Of a stretch of 64,000 bases of DNA, positions 48,636 through 52,874 are shown piece by piece (the stretch's first letter is position 1; every line of letters starts with the position of its first letter). The DNA lies in NCBI GenBank assembly GCA_019163175.1, contig JAFLKN010000004.1, positions 1-64,000 on the forward strand. The letters run 5' to 3'. Made by a program: the position numbers and the translations under genes. Below the pieces are notes generated by a model. That model searched no databases. It was not told the DNA's origin and saw only the letters and a list, made by a program, of their open reading frames with translations. This stretch comes from Prolixibacteraceae bacterium. Its GTDB lineage: Bacteria > Bacteroidota > Bacteroidia > Bacteroidales > Prolixibacteraceae.

Positions 48636-48737
48636 CAGTGGGCAGTCGCAGTTGGCAGGGAAAAGTCGGAAGACCGGAGTCCGAAGACAGAAGTCAGAAG
48701 CTACGATCCCTGAGTAACGAAGCGTATCGAAGGGAAC
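48636..48737. repeat. Spacer repeats between iorA and iorB
   Basis: A G/A-rich stretch with repeated GTCGGAAG/GTCCGAAG/AAGTCAGAAG words (48664-48700) is followed by the palindrome CCCTGAGTAACGAAGCG... (48708-48734), a short member of the TCGAAGG family. It separates two genes of one operon. Confidence 0.55.
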
Positions 48738-48773
48738 TTGAATTTGAAATTTTGAACTTGAAACTTATTGAAA

Positions 48774-49355
48774 ATGAAATCAGACATTATACTTGCAGGT
48801 GTTGGCGGACAGGGGATTTTATCCATTGCTACCGCATTGGGCGAAGCAGCTTTGGCCGATAATCTGCTCATCAAACAGGCCGAAACCCACGGAATGAGTC
48901 AGCGGGGTGGAGCGGTCTACTCACATATGCGCATTTCCGATCAACCTATTTCGTCCGATCTAATTCCGGGCGGAGCGGCAGACTTGATTTTGTCGGTTGA
49001 GCCGATGGAATCATTGCGCTATCTGCCTTATTTGTCGGAAACTGGTTATTTGGTTACCAACATCACTCCATTTGTGAATATTCCGAACTATCCGGATATT
49101 GAAAAAGTGATGGAAGAAATTCGCAAGTTGCCCCGTTTCATTGCCATTGATGCCGATACCATTGCCAAAGAAGTGGGCAGTACCCGCGCCTCAAATATGG
49201 TTATGTTGGGAGCAGCTTCGCCATTTATTGACATCGAATTTTCAAAAATTGAAGATGGCATTCGCACTATTTTTGGGCGAAAAGGAGAAGCGGTAGTCAA
49301 CATGAATCTCGAAGCCCTGCGCCGCGGAAGGCAGTTTGCCGAAGAAAATAAATAG
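48774..49355 (+). CDS. iorB: Indolepyruvate:ferredoxin oxidoreductase, beta subunit
   Basis: 193 residues of the pyruvate/ketoisovalerate oxidoreductase gamma-type fold: DIILAGVGGQGILSIATALGEAA at the N-terminus and KQAETHGMSQRGGAVYSHMRI, the conserved block of the family. With IorA it forms the active oxidoreductase. The start is the ATG at 48774; a TTG two codons earlier is less likely. It lies 139 bases behind iorA across a repeat and is followed by a terminator. Confidence 0.93.
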   Translation: MKSDIILAGVGGQGILSIATALGEAALADNLLIKQAETHGMSQRGGAVYSHMRISDQPISSDLIPGGAADLILSVEPMESLRYLPYLSETGYLVTNITPFVNIPNYPDIEKVMEEIRKLPRFIAIDADTIAKEVGSTRASNMVMLGAASPFIDIEFSKIEDGIRTIFGRKGEAVVNMNLEALRRGRQFAEENK

Positions 49356-49375
49356 CAATCAATTCGTCTACAATA

Positions 49376-49411
49376 AACAGATCCGGTGAAAGTGAATTCA
49401 TCGGATTTGTT
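49376..49411 (+). terminator. Terminator-like hairpin after iorB
   Basis: Stem AACAGATCCG / CGGATTTGTT (one G-T pair) with a second inner TGAA/TTCA stem. It is followed by TGCTTTAAAT, so the T-run is weak. Confidence 0.5.
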
Positions 49412-49455
49412 GCTTTAAATGGGGAATATGCTCCCTTCGATACGCCTTCATCAAT

Positions 49456-49599
49456 GCTCCCTTCGACTGCTTCGCGCTCAGGGAGCGTCGCTTCGAATTA
49501 CTTCATCTGTTCGCAAAAGCCTGAAAACACAAATGATCAAAAAAGCAAAAACTTTCGCACACCTGCTGCCTGAGCAGCCGTCAGGCGTGTCGAAGGCAG
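49456..49599. repeat. Composite palindromic repeat unit A
   Basis: A left hairpin GCTCCCT...AGGGAGC (49456-49486), an A-rich spacer with GCAAAAGCCTGAAAACACAA and TCAAAAAAGC, and a right hairpin with arms CTGCCT/AGGCAG (49566-49599) containing GTCGAAGG. The inner 49460-49482 is the exact reverse complement of 50143-50165 in unit B. A partial left end, GCTCCCTTCGATACGCC, lies just before it at 49430-49446. Confidence 0.75.
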
Positions 49600-49666
49600 A
49601 AGGCTGTTCGTAAAAACCGAATAGTGAACGCAAAAATGAGCAAACCGAAAATTCATCGTAATTCCC

Positions 49667-49674
49667 TAAATTTG
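49667..49674 (+). promoter_or_regulatory. Putative -7 box directly before the GIY-YIG start
   Basis: TAAATTTG matches TAnnTTTG and ends only three bases before the ATG at 49678. If functional, the mRNA would start at or next to the start codon, giving a leaderless transcript. Confidence 0.4.
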
Positions 49675-49677
49675 GGT

Positions 49678-49974
49678 ATGAAAGGTTATCTCTACATTTT
49701 ACTTTGTGCCGATGGAAGTTTTTACACAGGAAGTACCAACGATTTGGAACGACGCCTCGAAGAACACCAAAAAGGTGAAGGTGCAAACCATACCCGCAAA
49801 CGGCTTCCGGTTGAATTGGTTTATATCGAAGAGTATGACCGGATTGATGAAGCGTACTATAGAGAAAGACAAATCCATGGTTGGGGCCGTGATAAAAAGA
49901 TCGCGTTGATTGAAGGACGAAATGAAGATTTGCCGGGGCTGGCAAAAAGCTACTGGAGAAAGAAGAAAGGATGA
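49678..49974 (+). CDS. Single-domain GIY-YIG nuclease family protein
   Basis: 98 residues from this ATG. The GIY-YIG fold is clear: YLYILLCADGSFYTGSTNDL carries both tyrosine motifs (YIL, YTG), then RLEEHQKGEGANHTRKRLP with the conserved arginine and the basic H-T-R patch, and DEAYYRERQIHGWGRDKK with the catalytic-type glutamate and RE-Q-W motif. The frame extends to GTG at 49624, but family members begin at MKGY. The gene lies between repeat units A and B, so it is a candidate for their processing or spread (inference). Confidence 0.88.
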   Translation: MKGYLYILLCADGSFYTGSTNDLERRLEEHQKGEGANHTRKRLPVELVYIEEYDRIDEAYYRERQIHGWGRDKKIALIEGRNEDLPGLAKSYWRKKKG

Positions 49975-49997
49975 TGAATTTACTTCTTTTGGAGAAT

Positions 49998-50167
49998 GCT
50001 CCCTTCGACACGCCTATCGGCTGACTTCGGCGTGAGCTCAGTCGAACGCTCAGGGAGCGGCGCTTTGAATAACAGTTTAGCTTTGCAAAAGCTTAAAAAC
50101 GGAAACGCTCAAAAAAGCGAATAACTATGCACGACTCCGAGGCCTGAGCGCGAAGCAGTCGAAGGCT
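49998..50167. repeat. Composite palindromic repeat unit B
   Basis: A left hairpin with arms GCTCCCT/AGGGAGC (49998-50058) contains the 23-bp module also found at 53092-53114. An A-rich spacer (GCAAAAGCTTAAAAAC, CTCAAAAAAGC) aligns with that of unit A. The right end (50143-50165) is the exact reverse complement of the core in unit A. It starts 24 bases after the GIY-YIG stop. Confidence 0.75.
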
Positions 50168-50181
50168 GGATCTTCATCAAT

Positions 50182-50324
50182 GCTCCCTTCGATACGCCTT
50201 CGGCTACTCAGGGAGCGACGCAATGAACAGCGATATATTTTAGTGAAATCAAAAAACACAAATCTCCGGAATTGAGAGCTTATCAGCGCTGCACCGAGGC
50301 CTGAGCACGAAGCAATCGAAGGCC
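50182..50324. repeat. Composite palindromic repeat unit C
   Basis: A left hairpin (50182-50216, arms GCTCCCT/AGGGAGC), a more diverged A-rich spacer, and a right hairpin with arms GGCCT/AGGCC (50298-50324). It follows unit B after 14 bases. The 21 bases at the left start are identical to those of unit A (CTTCATCAATGCTCCCTTCG then A). Confidence 0.7.
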
Positions 50325-50339
50325 GACTATTAAAAGACC

Positions 50340-50376
50340 AAAGCCCCCGCCATCCTTCCTGACGACGAGGGCTTTT
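50340..50376 (-). terminator. Terminator of the E2-E3-E1 operon
   Basis: AAAGCCC / GGGCTTT stem with a G/C-rich inner loop, 30 bases past the E1 stop. On the minus strand TCTTTT follows shortly after. Confidence 0.6.
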
Positions 50377-50405: not shown

Positions 50406-52874
50406 TTACACCCCAAGTTTATTTCTTCTGATCTGCTCAGCGCTGGTAAAATTATTTTTCACCACGTGACCTTTCAGCGGAACAATCTTTTCGTGGATGG
50501 CATCGATCATCCATTCTGCACAAGGGAAGAATGAATCTTCGAGTTCGTAGGCTGGGGTAATCCAGTTACGCGAACCAACTACTACCGGTGGAGCGTCCAG
50601 ATCGTCGAAGGCCAGTTCCGAGATGGTTTGTGCCATTTCTTTCATAAACGAACCACGCGATGAAGCGTCGCCAGAAATGATGATACGACCGGTCTTTTTC
50701 ACCGAAGCCAAAACCAGTTCGTAGTTAAACGGACTCAAACTGCGGGCGTCAATCACCTCAGCCGACATTCCGTATTTTTCCTGAAGGATGTCAGCAGCTT
50801 CAAGCGCACGGTACAAAGTTGCACCAATGGTCAGGATTGTTACGTCTTTTCCTTCGCGTTTGATATCAGGTTCGCCAATGGCAATTTCGTAGTAACCTTC
50901 AGGCACACCACCTTTGTGGAATTGCTCGCCGATGTCGTACAAACGCTGGCTTTCGAAGAAAATCACCGGATCGGTTCCCTGCAAAGCAGCATTCATCAAA
51001 CCTTTGGCATCGTATGGAGTAGCCGGGAAAACAACTTTCAGTCCGGGGATTTGGGCAGTCAATGCAGTCCAGTCCTGAGAGTGCTGCGCGCCGTATTTCG
51101 AACCTACCGAAACGCGCAACACCACTGGCATTTTGATCACATTACCACTCATGGCTTGCCATTTTGGAAGCTGGTTGAACACCTGATCGCCGCAACGTCC
51201 GAGGAAGTCGCAATACATGATTTCAGGAATTACACGGCCACCGCACATGGCGTAACCAATGGCAGTTCCCACAATCGAAGCTTCCGAAATCGGCGAGTTG
51301 AACAAACGGTGATACGGCAACGCTTCGGTCAGACCGCGATACACGGCAAATGCGCCGCCCCAGTCGCGGTTTTCTTCTCCGTAGGCAATCAGGGTCGGAT
51401 CTTTGTAAAAACGATCAACAATCGCTTCGAAAATTCCGTCGCGGTAAGCGTAAGTTTTTATTTTTGAGTGTGCTTTGCCATTTTCGTCGAAAGCAAAACG
51501 TTCTTTTTTAGCCAATTGCTGAACACGGGCATTTTCGGCCATCGGGTGATTCACGTCCGGAGTGCGATCTTCCATACGGTCAACCGACTCGTTCGAGAAC
51601 ATCATTTCACCAATCAGGTTCGGGTATTTGGCCATGTCCATTCTTGGAGAAACCTTATCGTCGATCGCCAGTTTCATGCTCGATTCCATCAGGCTGATGG
51701 TGTCGCCTTTAATTCCGGTCAACTGATCTTCGGTAGCAACACCGGCTTTTACCAGTTCGCGACCAAACCAGGCAATAGAATCCTGAGCTTCCCATGCTTC
51801 CACTTCTTCTTTCGAGCGGTACGACGACGCATCCGAAGGCGAGTGTCCGCTATATCGGTAAGTCAACACGTCAAGTAAAACCGGTCCACGCTTTTCTTCC
51901 AGAATTATGCGTTTGCGTTTATACGCGTCAATTACGGCCAGCGGATTGTACCCGTCAACACGTTCGGCATGAAGCTGATCGGCATTAACACCAGCACCGA
52001 TACGGGCAGCAATGTTGTAGCCCATCGTTTCGCCGCAGGTTTGTCCGCCCATCCCGTATTGATTATTCATGATGTTGATGATCAGCGGAAGTCCGCCTTT
52101 CATATCGCCTTCCCACAATTCATTGAACTGATCCATGGTTGCGAAAGCCAGTCCTTCCCAAACTGGTCCGCAAGCCATCGAAGCATCGCCAATATTGGCA
52201 ACTACAATTCCTGATTTGCGGTTTACCTTTTTGTAGAGTGCTGCACCAACAGCAATGTCGCCCGAACCACCTACGATGGCGTTGTTCGGATACACTCCGA
52301 AAGGCGTAAAGAAAGCGTGCATCGAACCGCCCAATCCCTTGTTGAAACCGGTTTCGCGTGCAAATATTTCAGCCAGCGTTCCGTAGATCAGGAATTTAAT
52401 GGCCAGTTCTTTTACTGTTCCTGAATGTCCGTTTTTTACGGGAGCGAAAGTGATTCCGTCAAAATGACTTTCCATCACCTGCATCAGTTGTTCGTCGCTG
52501 AGTTTAGCGATGGCTGATAAGCCTTTGGCCAGAATTTCGCCATGCGAGCGGTGCGATCCGAAGATAAAATCCTCCACACCCAGCGTGTAAGCCATACCAA
52601 CTGCAGCAGCTTCTTGCCCGATCGACAAGTGAGCCGGTCCCGGATGATCGTAGGCAATACCGTTGTAATCGCCACGGATTTTGATCAGGTTCAGCATGGT
52701 TTCAAACTCGCGGATTACCACCATATCGCGGTAAATACGCAGCAAATCTTCGTTCGAGAAGTTTGCTTTTTCTTCTTCAACAGTTTTGTTGTACTGGTTT
52801 ACAGGAATCGGATTGAATGTAATTTCACCAGCTTTCCTGACTTCTGATGGATCAATAAATTGTGATTTGGGCAT
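50406..52874 (-). CDS. 2-oxoacid dehydrogenase E1, fused alpha and beta chains
   Basis: 822 residues. The N-terminal alpha part (about 30-440) has the TPP block NIGDASMACGPVWEGLAFA and YRYSGHSPSDAS. The C-terminal beta part (about 480-815) has YGEENRDWGGAF, FNSPISEASIVGTAIGYAM and ISGDASSRGSFM. It decarboxylates a 2-oxoacid (branched-chain, pyruvate or acetoin cannot be told apart) and transfers the acyl group to lipoyl-E2. It is the last gene of the E2-E3-E1 set, with 275 bases of repeat sequence between it and E3. Confidence 0.9.
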   Translation of the reverse strand: MPKSQFIDPSEVRKAGEITFNPIPVNQYNKTVEEEKANFSNEDLLRIYRDMVVIREFETMLNLIKIRGDYNGIAYDHPGPAHLSIGQEAAAVGMAYTLGVEDFIFGSHRSHGEILAKGLSAIAKLSDEQLMQVMESHFDGITFAPVKNGHSGTVKELAIKFLIYGTLAEIFARETGFNKGLGGSMHAFFTPFGVYPNNAIVGGSGDIAVGAALYKKVNRKSGIVVANIGDASMACGPVWEGLAFATMDQFNELWEGDMKGGLPLIINIMNNQYGMGGQTCGETMGYNIAARIGAGVNADQLHAERVDGYNPLAVIDAYKRKRIILEEKRGPVLLDVLTYRYSGHSPSDASSYRSKEEVEAWEAQDSIAWFGRELVKAGVATEDQLTGIKGDTISLMESSMKLAIDDKVSPRMDMAKYPNLIGEMMFSNESVDRMEDRTPDVNHPMAENARVQQLAKKERFAFDENGKAHSKIKTYAYRDGIFEAIVDRFYKDPTLIAYGEENRDWGGAFAVYRGLTEALPYHRLFNSPISEASIVGTAIGYAMCGGRVIPEIMYCDFLGRCGDQVFNQLPKWQAMSGNVIKMPVVLRVSVGSKYGAQHSQDWTALTAQIPGLKVVFPATPYDAKGLMNAALQGTDPVIFFESQRLYDIGEQFHKGGVPEGYYEIAIGEPDIKREGKDVTILTIGATLYRALEAADILQEKYGMSAEVIDARSLSPFNYELVLASVKKTGRIIISGDASSRGSFMKEMAQTISELAFDDLDAPPVVVGSRNWITPAYELEDSFFPCAEWMIDAIHEKIVPLKGHVVKNNFTSAEQIRRNKLGV

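Follow-up and report, generated by a model that had tools for sequence, protein, structure and literature searches.

Introduction

Does a small nuclease gene that lies among palindromic repeats belong to those repeats, or does it stand there by accident? The question is raised by a locus in the draft genome (5.92 Mb) of a Prolixibacteraceae bacterium, where a gene for a GIY-YIG nuclease is found between composite repeat units; the window, as the whole stretch of DNA analysed is called here, comprises positions 1–64,000 of its contig (64,000 nucleotides). A precedent is offered by the REP/RAYT (TnpAREP) systems, or REPtrons, and their REPINs, in which, according to excerpts of two accounts, short intergenic palindromes form inverted pairs, the hairpin has a conserved stem irregularity, a nuclease gene sits amid its hairpins, and the repeats outlive the gene (PMC8266576, PMC8049555).

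The locus and its composite units

The initial annotation had described three composite units, A, B and C, with a 98-residue GIY-YIG gene between A and B, and all of these are present where it placed them. Hairpins are named here by the strand that reads GAG...CGA (for example GCTCCCTGAGCGCGAAGCAGTCGAAGGGAGC for the head of A and GAGGCCTGAGCACGAAGCAATCGAAGGCC for the tail of C). The features are as follows, in window coordinates:

48707..48735 (about), plus strand: lone hairpin CCTGAG-taacgaagcgta-TCGAAGG, upstream, between two indolepyruvate/pyruvate oxidoreductase subunit genes (hairpin caller)
49430..49447, minus strand: partial left arm GCTCCCTTCGATACGCCT before unit A (direct repeat D2)
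49456..49486, minus strand: head hairpin of unit A, stem GCTCCCT/AGGGAGC, core GAG...CGA on the minus strand
49487..49566, no strand: spacer of unit A, A-rich, alignable with the spacer of unit B
49567..49600, plus strand: tail hairpin of unit A, CTGCCTGAG...TCGAAGGCAG (hairpin caller)
49678..49974, plus strand: GIY-YIG nuclease gene, 98 aa (PF01541; conserved Y6, Y16, R26 and E63; model pLDDT 81.8)
49998..50058, minus strand: head hairpin of unit B, with a long nested loop, stem GCTCCCT/AGGGAGC (direct inspection of repeats)
50059..50140, no strand: spacer of unit B (direct repeat D1)
50141..50167, plus strand: tail hairpin of unit B, GGCCTGAGCGCGAAGCAGTCGAAGGCT (repeat comparison, hairpin caller)
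50182..50216, minus strand: head hairpin of unit C, stem GCTCCCT/AGGGAGC (hairpin caller)
50217..50297, no strand: spacer of unit C (from the coordinates of unit C)
50298..50324, plus strand: tail hairpin of unit C, GGCCTGAGCACGAAGCAATCGAAGGCC (direct repeat D4, hairpin caller)

The gene runs from an ATG at 49678 to a stop at 49974 and matches PF01541 at 68.2 bits. A 23-base core recurs exactly in inverted orientation (49460–49482 versus 50143–50165), and the likeness reported between the spacers of A and B is borne out by an alignment of the two units over 86 nt at 73%. The common plan of a left and a right hairpin also holds, but these are not two separate kinds of hairpin: the right hairpin repeats the left core as its reverse complement and differs in its outer stem, which makes each unit an inverted pair, a minus hairpin and a plus hairpin around a spacer. 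Spacers resembling that of unit A adjoin the gene in two relatives (L015 and L016, by eye).

Across the 64 kb the hairpin caller gives 12 matches, seven of them in 48707–50324, and the remaining five look like chance; at the head of unit B it recovers only the nested hairpin at 50029–50050 and misses the long head. In the same genome, five of the six places that match the strict head pattern are not near any GIY-YIG match. Low-complexity strings of the form agtcggaagaccggagtccgaagacagaagtcagaag adjoin lone hairpins in the window (48640–48700) and in another locus (L008), and form a further class of repeat, found with some of the isolated hairpin copies.

Structure of the hairpins

The hairpin core consists of a covarying stem and a conserved GAG...CGA, which would pair as tandem G.A/A.G plus G-C; one base is usually bulged, and a GNA triloop is frequent. 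Both GNA loops and tandem G.A pairs are stable elements in DNA. Covariation was assessed in 109 distinct instances from 37 loci (out of 134 instances in all), fixed only by CTGAG...TCGAA, with long, nested and repeated hairpins left out. The inner pair is Watson-Crick in 102 of the 109 (C-G 76, G-C 22, T-A 4), where shuffling reached 74 at most, and the second and third pairs in 99 (shuffle maximum 58) and 98 (68); the fourth pair, a position with little variation, is Watson-Crick in 75 (73) and the fifth in 72 (51), and beyond the fifth pair the 109 instances show no clear Watson-Crick excess. When one instance per locus was used, the inner, second, third and fifth pairs still lay above every shuffle. 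In other clades the outer T-A is replaced by C-G with pairing kept, or the bulged T by C (by eye). GNA triloops are found in 42 of 49 five-base cores and 26 of 51 long cores (32 of 57 if the re-fetched loci L067 and L068 are included), and ten more long cores have AAA.

Folding energy was considered as proof of the hairpins and rejected: z-scores ran from −2.55 to +1.80 over 12 strand folds, which is unremarkable, and nearest-neighbour folding does not single the hairpins out. No Rfam family reached its gathering score in the four sources scanned. A sister class, TCATYCTGAG..CGAAGRATCT, often without the bulged T, was seen beside more distant GIY-YIG genes (L240, L245, L258, L259, L269), one of them carried by a plasmid of Planktothrix and flanked by MmeI and DISARM genes.

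The GIY-YIG protein

By sequence and predicted fold, the 98-residue protein belongs among the UPF0213/Slx1-like GIY-YIG nucleases and has a single domain. The Pfam scan, for which a 116-aa frame beginning 18 codons upstream of the ATG at 49678 was used, gave only GIY-YIG (PF01541) and an overlapping T5orf172 match, and the sole NCBIfam match of the protein was to TIGR01453, below its cut-off. In a profile search against the PDB, 1zg2 was recovered (6e-24) and also 1ywl; the structure model (pLDDT 81.8, pTM 0.71, the last nine residues being poor) led in a fold search to 1zg2 and 1ywl first and then to Slx1 chains, the latter at E > 0.001. An alignment of 67 proteins, the one in the window included, has invariant Y6, L8, C10, Y16, R26, T39, L47, E63, K73, K74 and L77, among which we take Y6, Y16, R26 and E63 to be the expected catalytic residues of the GIY-YIG fold. 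A GIY-YIG fold with conserved candidate catalytic residues, as expected of UPF0213/Slx1-like nucleases, is thus predicted; for no member of the subfamily is a tested substrate known to us.

The likeness to UPF0213/COG2827 proteins (1zg2, 1ywl; E. coli YhbQ, B. subtilis YazA) and, more weakly, to Slx1 extends over sequence and fold. In an excerpt of one account, YhbQ and YazA are placed in the Slx1 family and Slx1-Slx4 is treated under structure-selective nucleases (PMC7017083). Unlike Slx1, the present protein lacks a C-terminal zinc-finger domain, for which 98 residues leave no room.

Association of the nuclease subfamily with the hairpins

A first set of 52 loci with protein relatives was drawn from a scan of public genomes, and a larger set adds loci among the matches listed in searches of the family and the phylum, the subfamily being defined by more than 70 bits in tblastn; the bit scores of the phylum-genome survey and those behind the hairpin count at loci come from different programs. 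A hairpin lies within 500 bp of the subfamily gene in 77 of 82 loci (window included, two re-fetches removed), and on both sides in 48. With L067 and L068, two re-fetched stretches that lie inside L015 and L016, the count is 79 of 84, and a check for identical 400-nt stretches found no duplicates besides these two. Among the five loci without a hairpin (L029, L041, L052, L074 and L156), L029 reaches the edge of its contig, L041 matches only in part and an in-frame stop interrupts L074. Weaker matches (70 bits or less), which are other GIY-YIG genes and some fragments, have a hairpin within 500 bp in 4 of 25 loci; seven of the 25 are short fragments (fewer than 70 aa aligned), one of them with a hairpin, and fragments L059 and L060 look like pieces of the subfamily. 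Random windows contained a called hairpin in 465 of 6560 cases, and the background of the caller is 0.10 per kb.

The association was also seen with the motif TTCGA-N3..20-CTCAG, taken from the window, whose density is 3.06 per kb up to 400 bp from the gene (36 of the 52 loci have it there) versus 0.070 per kb beyond 1 kb; for the reversed motif the densities are 0.076 near and 0.014 far. A placement test was possible on the 49 loci of sufficient length: 35 have the motif, whereas random placement puts it in 1.7 on average and in 7 at most. In an unbiased scan of every trinucleotide pair inside 5-bp stems, GAG/CGA (with its complement) ranked first of the 1592 pairs seen near genes and was 70-fold enriched beside the gene, with 112 occurrences in 39.6 kb near it (39 of 52 loci) versus 28 in 703 kb far from it. 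Outside open frames of at least 90 aa the densities are 7.75 versus 0.24 per kb, a 32-fold difference, and 9 of 162 far intergenic gaps of at least 150 nt hold a GAG/CGA hairpin. Orientation is biased, in that the nearest upstream hairpin is on the plus strand in 38 of 57 cases and the nearest downstream hairpin on the minus strand in 51 of 68, and arrays of up to nine hairpins were called on one side of the gene (L017).

The same hairpin plan was found in Ignavibacteriae (L024, L047), in Agitococcus (L032) and in another gammaproteobacterial MAG (L037). Eight plasmid relatives were found and five fetched: those of Sphingomonas, Methylobacterium and Planktothrix are flanked by hairpins, that of Sinorhizobium has no hairpin, and that of Shinella only chance-like matches. 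The Methylobacterium bullatum relative (L267) has long-loop hairpins TCATCCTGAG...CCTCGAAGGAGG on either side, some 60 bp before the start of the match and 314 bp beyond it. Phage records with protein relatives number 19.

The comparative counts are the strongest evidence for a link to one nuclease subfamily beyond chance. That the subfamily is paired with GAG...CGA hairpins is close to certain. The claim of the initial annotation that gene and palindromes belong together is well supported (77 of 82 versus 4 of 25, with hairpin class following the protein tree), and its overall reading finds partial support.

Hairpin class and the protein tree

The protein tree has 77 rows and few columns, with 37 of 73 inner branches left open; partial loci (L041, L054, L055, L057, L169) and the re-fetches L067 and L068 were dropped. 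With eight class-less rows uncounted, hairpin class changes 19 times on this tree, versus a mean of 38 and a minimum of 30 in 300 shuffles (69 rows, kinship of hosts ignored). This fit shows either shared descent or shared specificity.

A match of hairpin class to the gene throughout the genome was also considered; it failed in G071 and G116 and was weakly positive in 10 loci. Away from the gene, the dominant gene-side class was found in two of six hairpins in 800 kb of G071 and in none of four in 400 kb of G116, so the resident gene need not be the source of the dispersed copies. In 10 loci of the public-genome set, class matches the gene in 15 of 22 hairpins, a value reached in 59 of 5000 shuffles.

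Repeats in genomes with and without the gene

The subfamily, at more than 70 bits, is present in 43 of 296 genomes of the phylum, and at least one pattern match in 252 of the 296, chance matches included. The repeats are not distributed independently of the gene: at least ten pattern matches (raw counts, tallied by hand from tables) occur in 21 of the 43 genomes with the subfamily versus 35 of the 253 without it (one-sided Fisher 1e-6), several gene-bearing genomes counting as repeat-poor because the pattern misses long-loop T-A classes. The gene itself is patchy, with a match of at least 51% identity in 8 of 60 genomes of the family, the present one included.

Repeat-rich genomes without such a gene, which the initial annotation had named as evidence against a link, do exist. 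G011 has 73 copies on one contig, and its only PF01541 match falls in a frame of 608 aa, taken to be UvrC; G061 has 214 copies on one contig and no match to the subfamily profile. In E. coli, REPINs persist without a RAYT according to an excerpt of one account (PMC8049555), and for that reason genomes of this kind weigh little against the link. In G061 the copies form REPIN-like pairs about 44 bp apart, with both hairpins in 16 of 20 fetched regions, seven of which had been chosen as pairs. Three other sampled members of the genus of G011 have 0, 0 and 1 pattern matches; in the repeat-rich regions of G011 itself (L176–L188) the hairpins are accompanied by short tandem repeats and by dispersed ones.

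Thirty-one repeat-rich genomes that lack a close gene (30 of the 35, plus G011) were searched with the profile; 20 have some GIY-YIG and 11 no match (G011, G061, G104, G336, G187, G319, G062, G067, G081, G089 and G221). Thirty GIY-YIG loci were fetched from repeat-rich genomes, and nine have a hairpin within about 500 bp, of which at least L256 is chance-like. Several diverged gene copies in these genomes still lie beside hairpins; among copies with in-frame stops, L237, L247 and L262 keep hairpins and L244 is without them.

The locus in relatives

In L014, L015, L016 and L041 the gene is on the same side of the dehydrogenase gene that begins at window position 50406, with other open frames between, and the upstream sequence is unrelated in L015, L016 and L041 (all by eye); from its constant side the gene seems to have been inherited in place in this clade. 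The number of called hairpins upstream and downstream is 2 and 4 in the window, 4 and 6 in L014, 0 and 4 in L015, and 0 and 6 in L016. L028 is about 140 bp longer than the near-identical L027, and the extra stretch includes one hairpin pair; this unit lies between direct repeats, so that loss by recombination explains the difference in length equally well.

No clean empty site for the window locus was found among 17 congener loci. In these the upstream oxidoreductase gene is present, the fetched flanks (up to 1.5 kb) contain no GIY-YIG, and no hairpin was called outside the oxidoreductase gene (L226 and L229 have one inside); the neighbouring dehydrogenase gene is also absent, and the place is therefore rearranged. 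No counterpart of the lone hairpin at 48707..48735 was called in the 17 loci, in one of which the spacer reads N (L231) and another of which is short (L232). Between the two oxidoreductase genes, the spacer varies too much among congeners for a clean alignment. Another dispersed-looking repeat (about ctctccccagccctctccaaaggagaggg) occupies it in L226, L229, L234 and others, so that the spacer resembles a hot spot for repeats of different kinds.

Discussion

The arrangement described here resembles that of REP/RAYT in its short intergenic palindromes in inverted pairs, its irregular stem, a nuclease gene flanked by the repeats, and repeats without the gene. In particular, a strand-specific irregular hairpin is indicated, at the sequence level, by covarying stems, GAG...CGA and GNA loops on the same strand, and dispersed REPIN-like inverted pairs are found in G061. 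The two differ in the enzyme, which is a GIY-YIG protein here and a HuH tyrosine transposase in RAYT, so that the gene among the repeats is a PF01541 gene and not a Y1/HuH gene, and in the stem irregularity, GAG...CGA here versus an AA/GC mismatch in E. coli REP; the tags of REPtrons are rare near the core (GTAG within 14 nt 5′ in 3 of 134 instances, CGTC in 8 of 134). A RAYT as the true partner of the hairpins was rejected, since none is bracketed by them among the 30 loci fetched of 42 Y1_Tnp matches listed (9 of 11 genomes); the hairpin motif occurs in four of these 30 loci, each time more than 800 bp from the match. The module is thus not a member of the REP/RAYT family, by enzyme and by hairpin signature, and REP/RAYT is its working analogue.

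Within the GIY-YIG proteins, the present subfamily is set apart by its tie to hairpins, which weaker GIY-YIG matches mostly do not share. Some GIY-YIG homing endonucleases, of the phage Seg type, are free-standing. The present gene is like them a stand-alone, mobile-looking nuclease gene in intergenic DNA, but its product has no second domain by Pfam apart from the overlapping T5orf172 match, and it has a dispersed hairpin partner.

On balance, the module probably works like a REPtron in which the enzyme is a single-domain GIY-YIG protein related to UPF0213 and Slx1, by analogy with REP/RAYT; the differences in unit number between relatives count in its favour. The protein would recognise the hairpin on the GAG...CGA strand, in single-stranded or cruciform DNA, and would cut in or beside it; repair or recombination after the cut could then multiply units locally and, more rarely, elsewhere, the gene and its flanking hairpins might travel between genomes as one small unit, and dispersed hairpin pairs, as non-autonomous derivatives, would persist after the gene is lost. 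An action of the protein on the hairpins is likely, while the case for its spreading them is finely balanced and leans slightly towards doubt. A bolder version is tentative: a minimal mobile element, found in several phyla, whose single-domain GIY-YIG enzyme would recognise the tandem G.A hairpin as single-stranded DNA and spread its own gene and derived short hairpin pairs independently of HuH, DDE or recombinase enzymes.

Repeats without the gene, and a gene that is patchy, would both be expected if a free-standing homing-type endonuclease had parasitised older repeats, the hairpins being cut sites that owe their spread to another agent, with the gene lodging there through repair. Repeat-rich genomes without the gene, its presence in 8 of 60 family genomes, and the dispersed classes of G071 and G116, which mostly differ from the gene-side classes, agree with this. 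However, in relatives the gene again has entire composite units next to it, their spacers being alike (by eye), which together with the class that follows the protein tree suggests a shared history and not only targeting, and no other driver was found, Y1_Tnp being the only family searched (30 loci fetched of 42 matches listed); we consider a parasitic origin unlikely.

The Slx1-like fold and the larger number of repeats in gene-bearing genomes would also suit a host function, in which the nuclease removes repeat hairpins on single-stranded DNA, protects repeat-bearing genomes, and lies in the repeats for no mechanistic reason; such a function is improbable, as it leaves unexplained both the bracketing of the gene in nearly every genome and the repeat-rich genomes without it. 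Least probable is a role of the hairpins as bidirectional terminators of transcription, or as sites of RNA processing, that border a small gene by accident. The hairpins are intergenic stem-loops and a terminator-like site (50340–50375) lies just past unit C, but this strong site falls outside the hairpins, which moreover go with one nuclease subfamily (weaker GIY-YIG 4 of 25, far intergenic gaps 9 of 162), stand in arrays of up to nine on one side of the gene, and have no Rfam family at threshold.

In the open-access literature, among the matches listed and with subscription papers and preprints outside the scope, no paper was found that ties GIY-YIG to dispersed bacterial palindromes and no enzyme is assigned to the CTTCGA...CTCAG palindromes; the repeat strings themselves gave nothing related. 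This suggests that a nuclease of this kind paired with its own DNA hairpins is undescribed. If the reading of the module as a REPtron-like system is true, a second, unrelated enzyme family would be added to REP-like systems, and the little-studied UPF0213-like proteins would gain a testable DNA substrate. CTTCGA...CTCAG palindromes are common in Bacteroidota, and a cognate GIY-YIG nuclease would then be the first handle on their origin.
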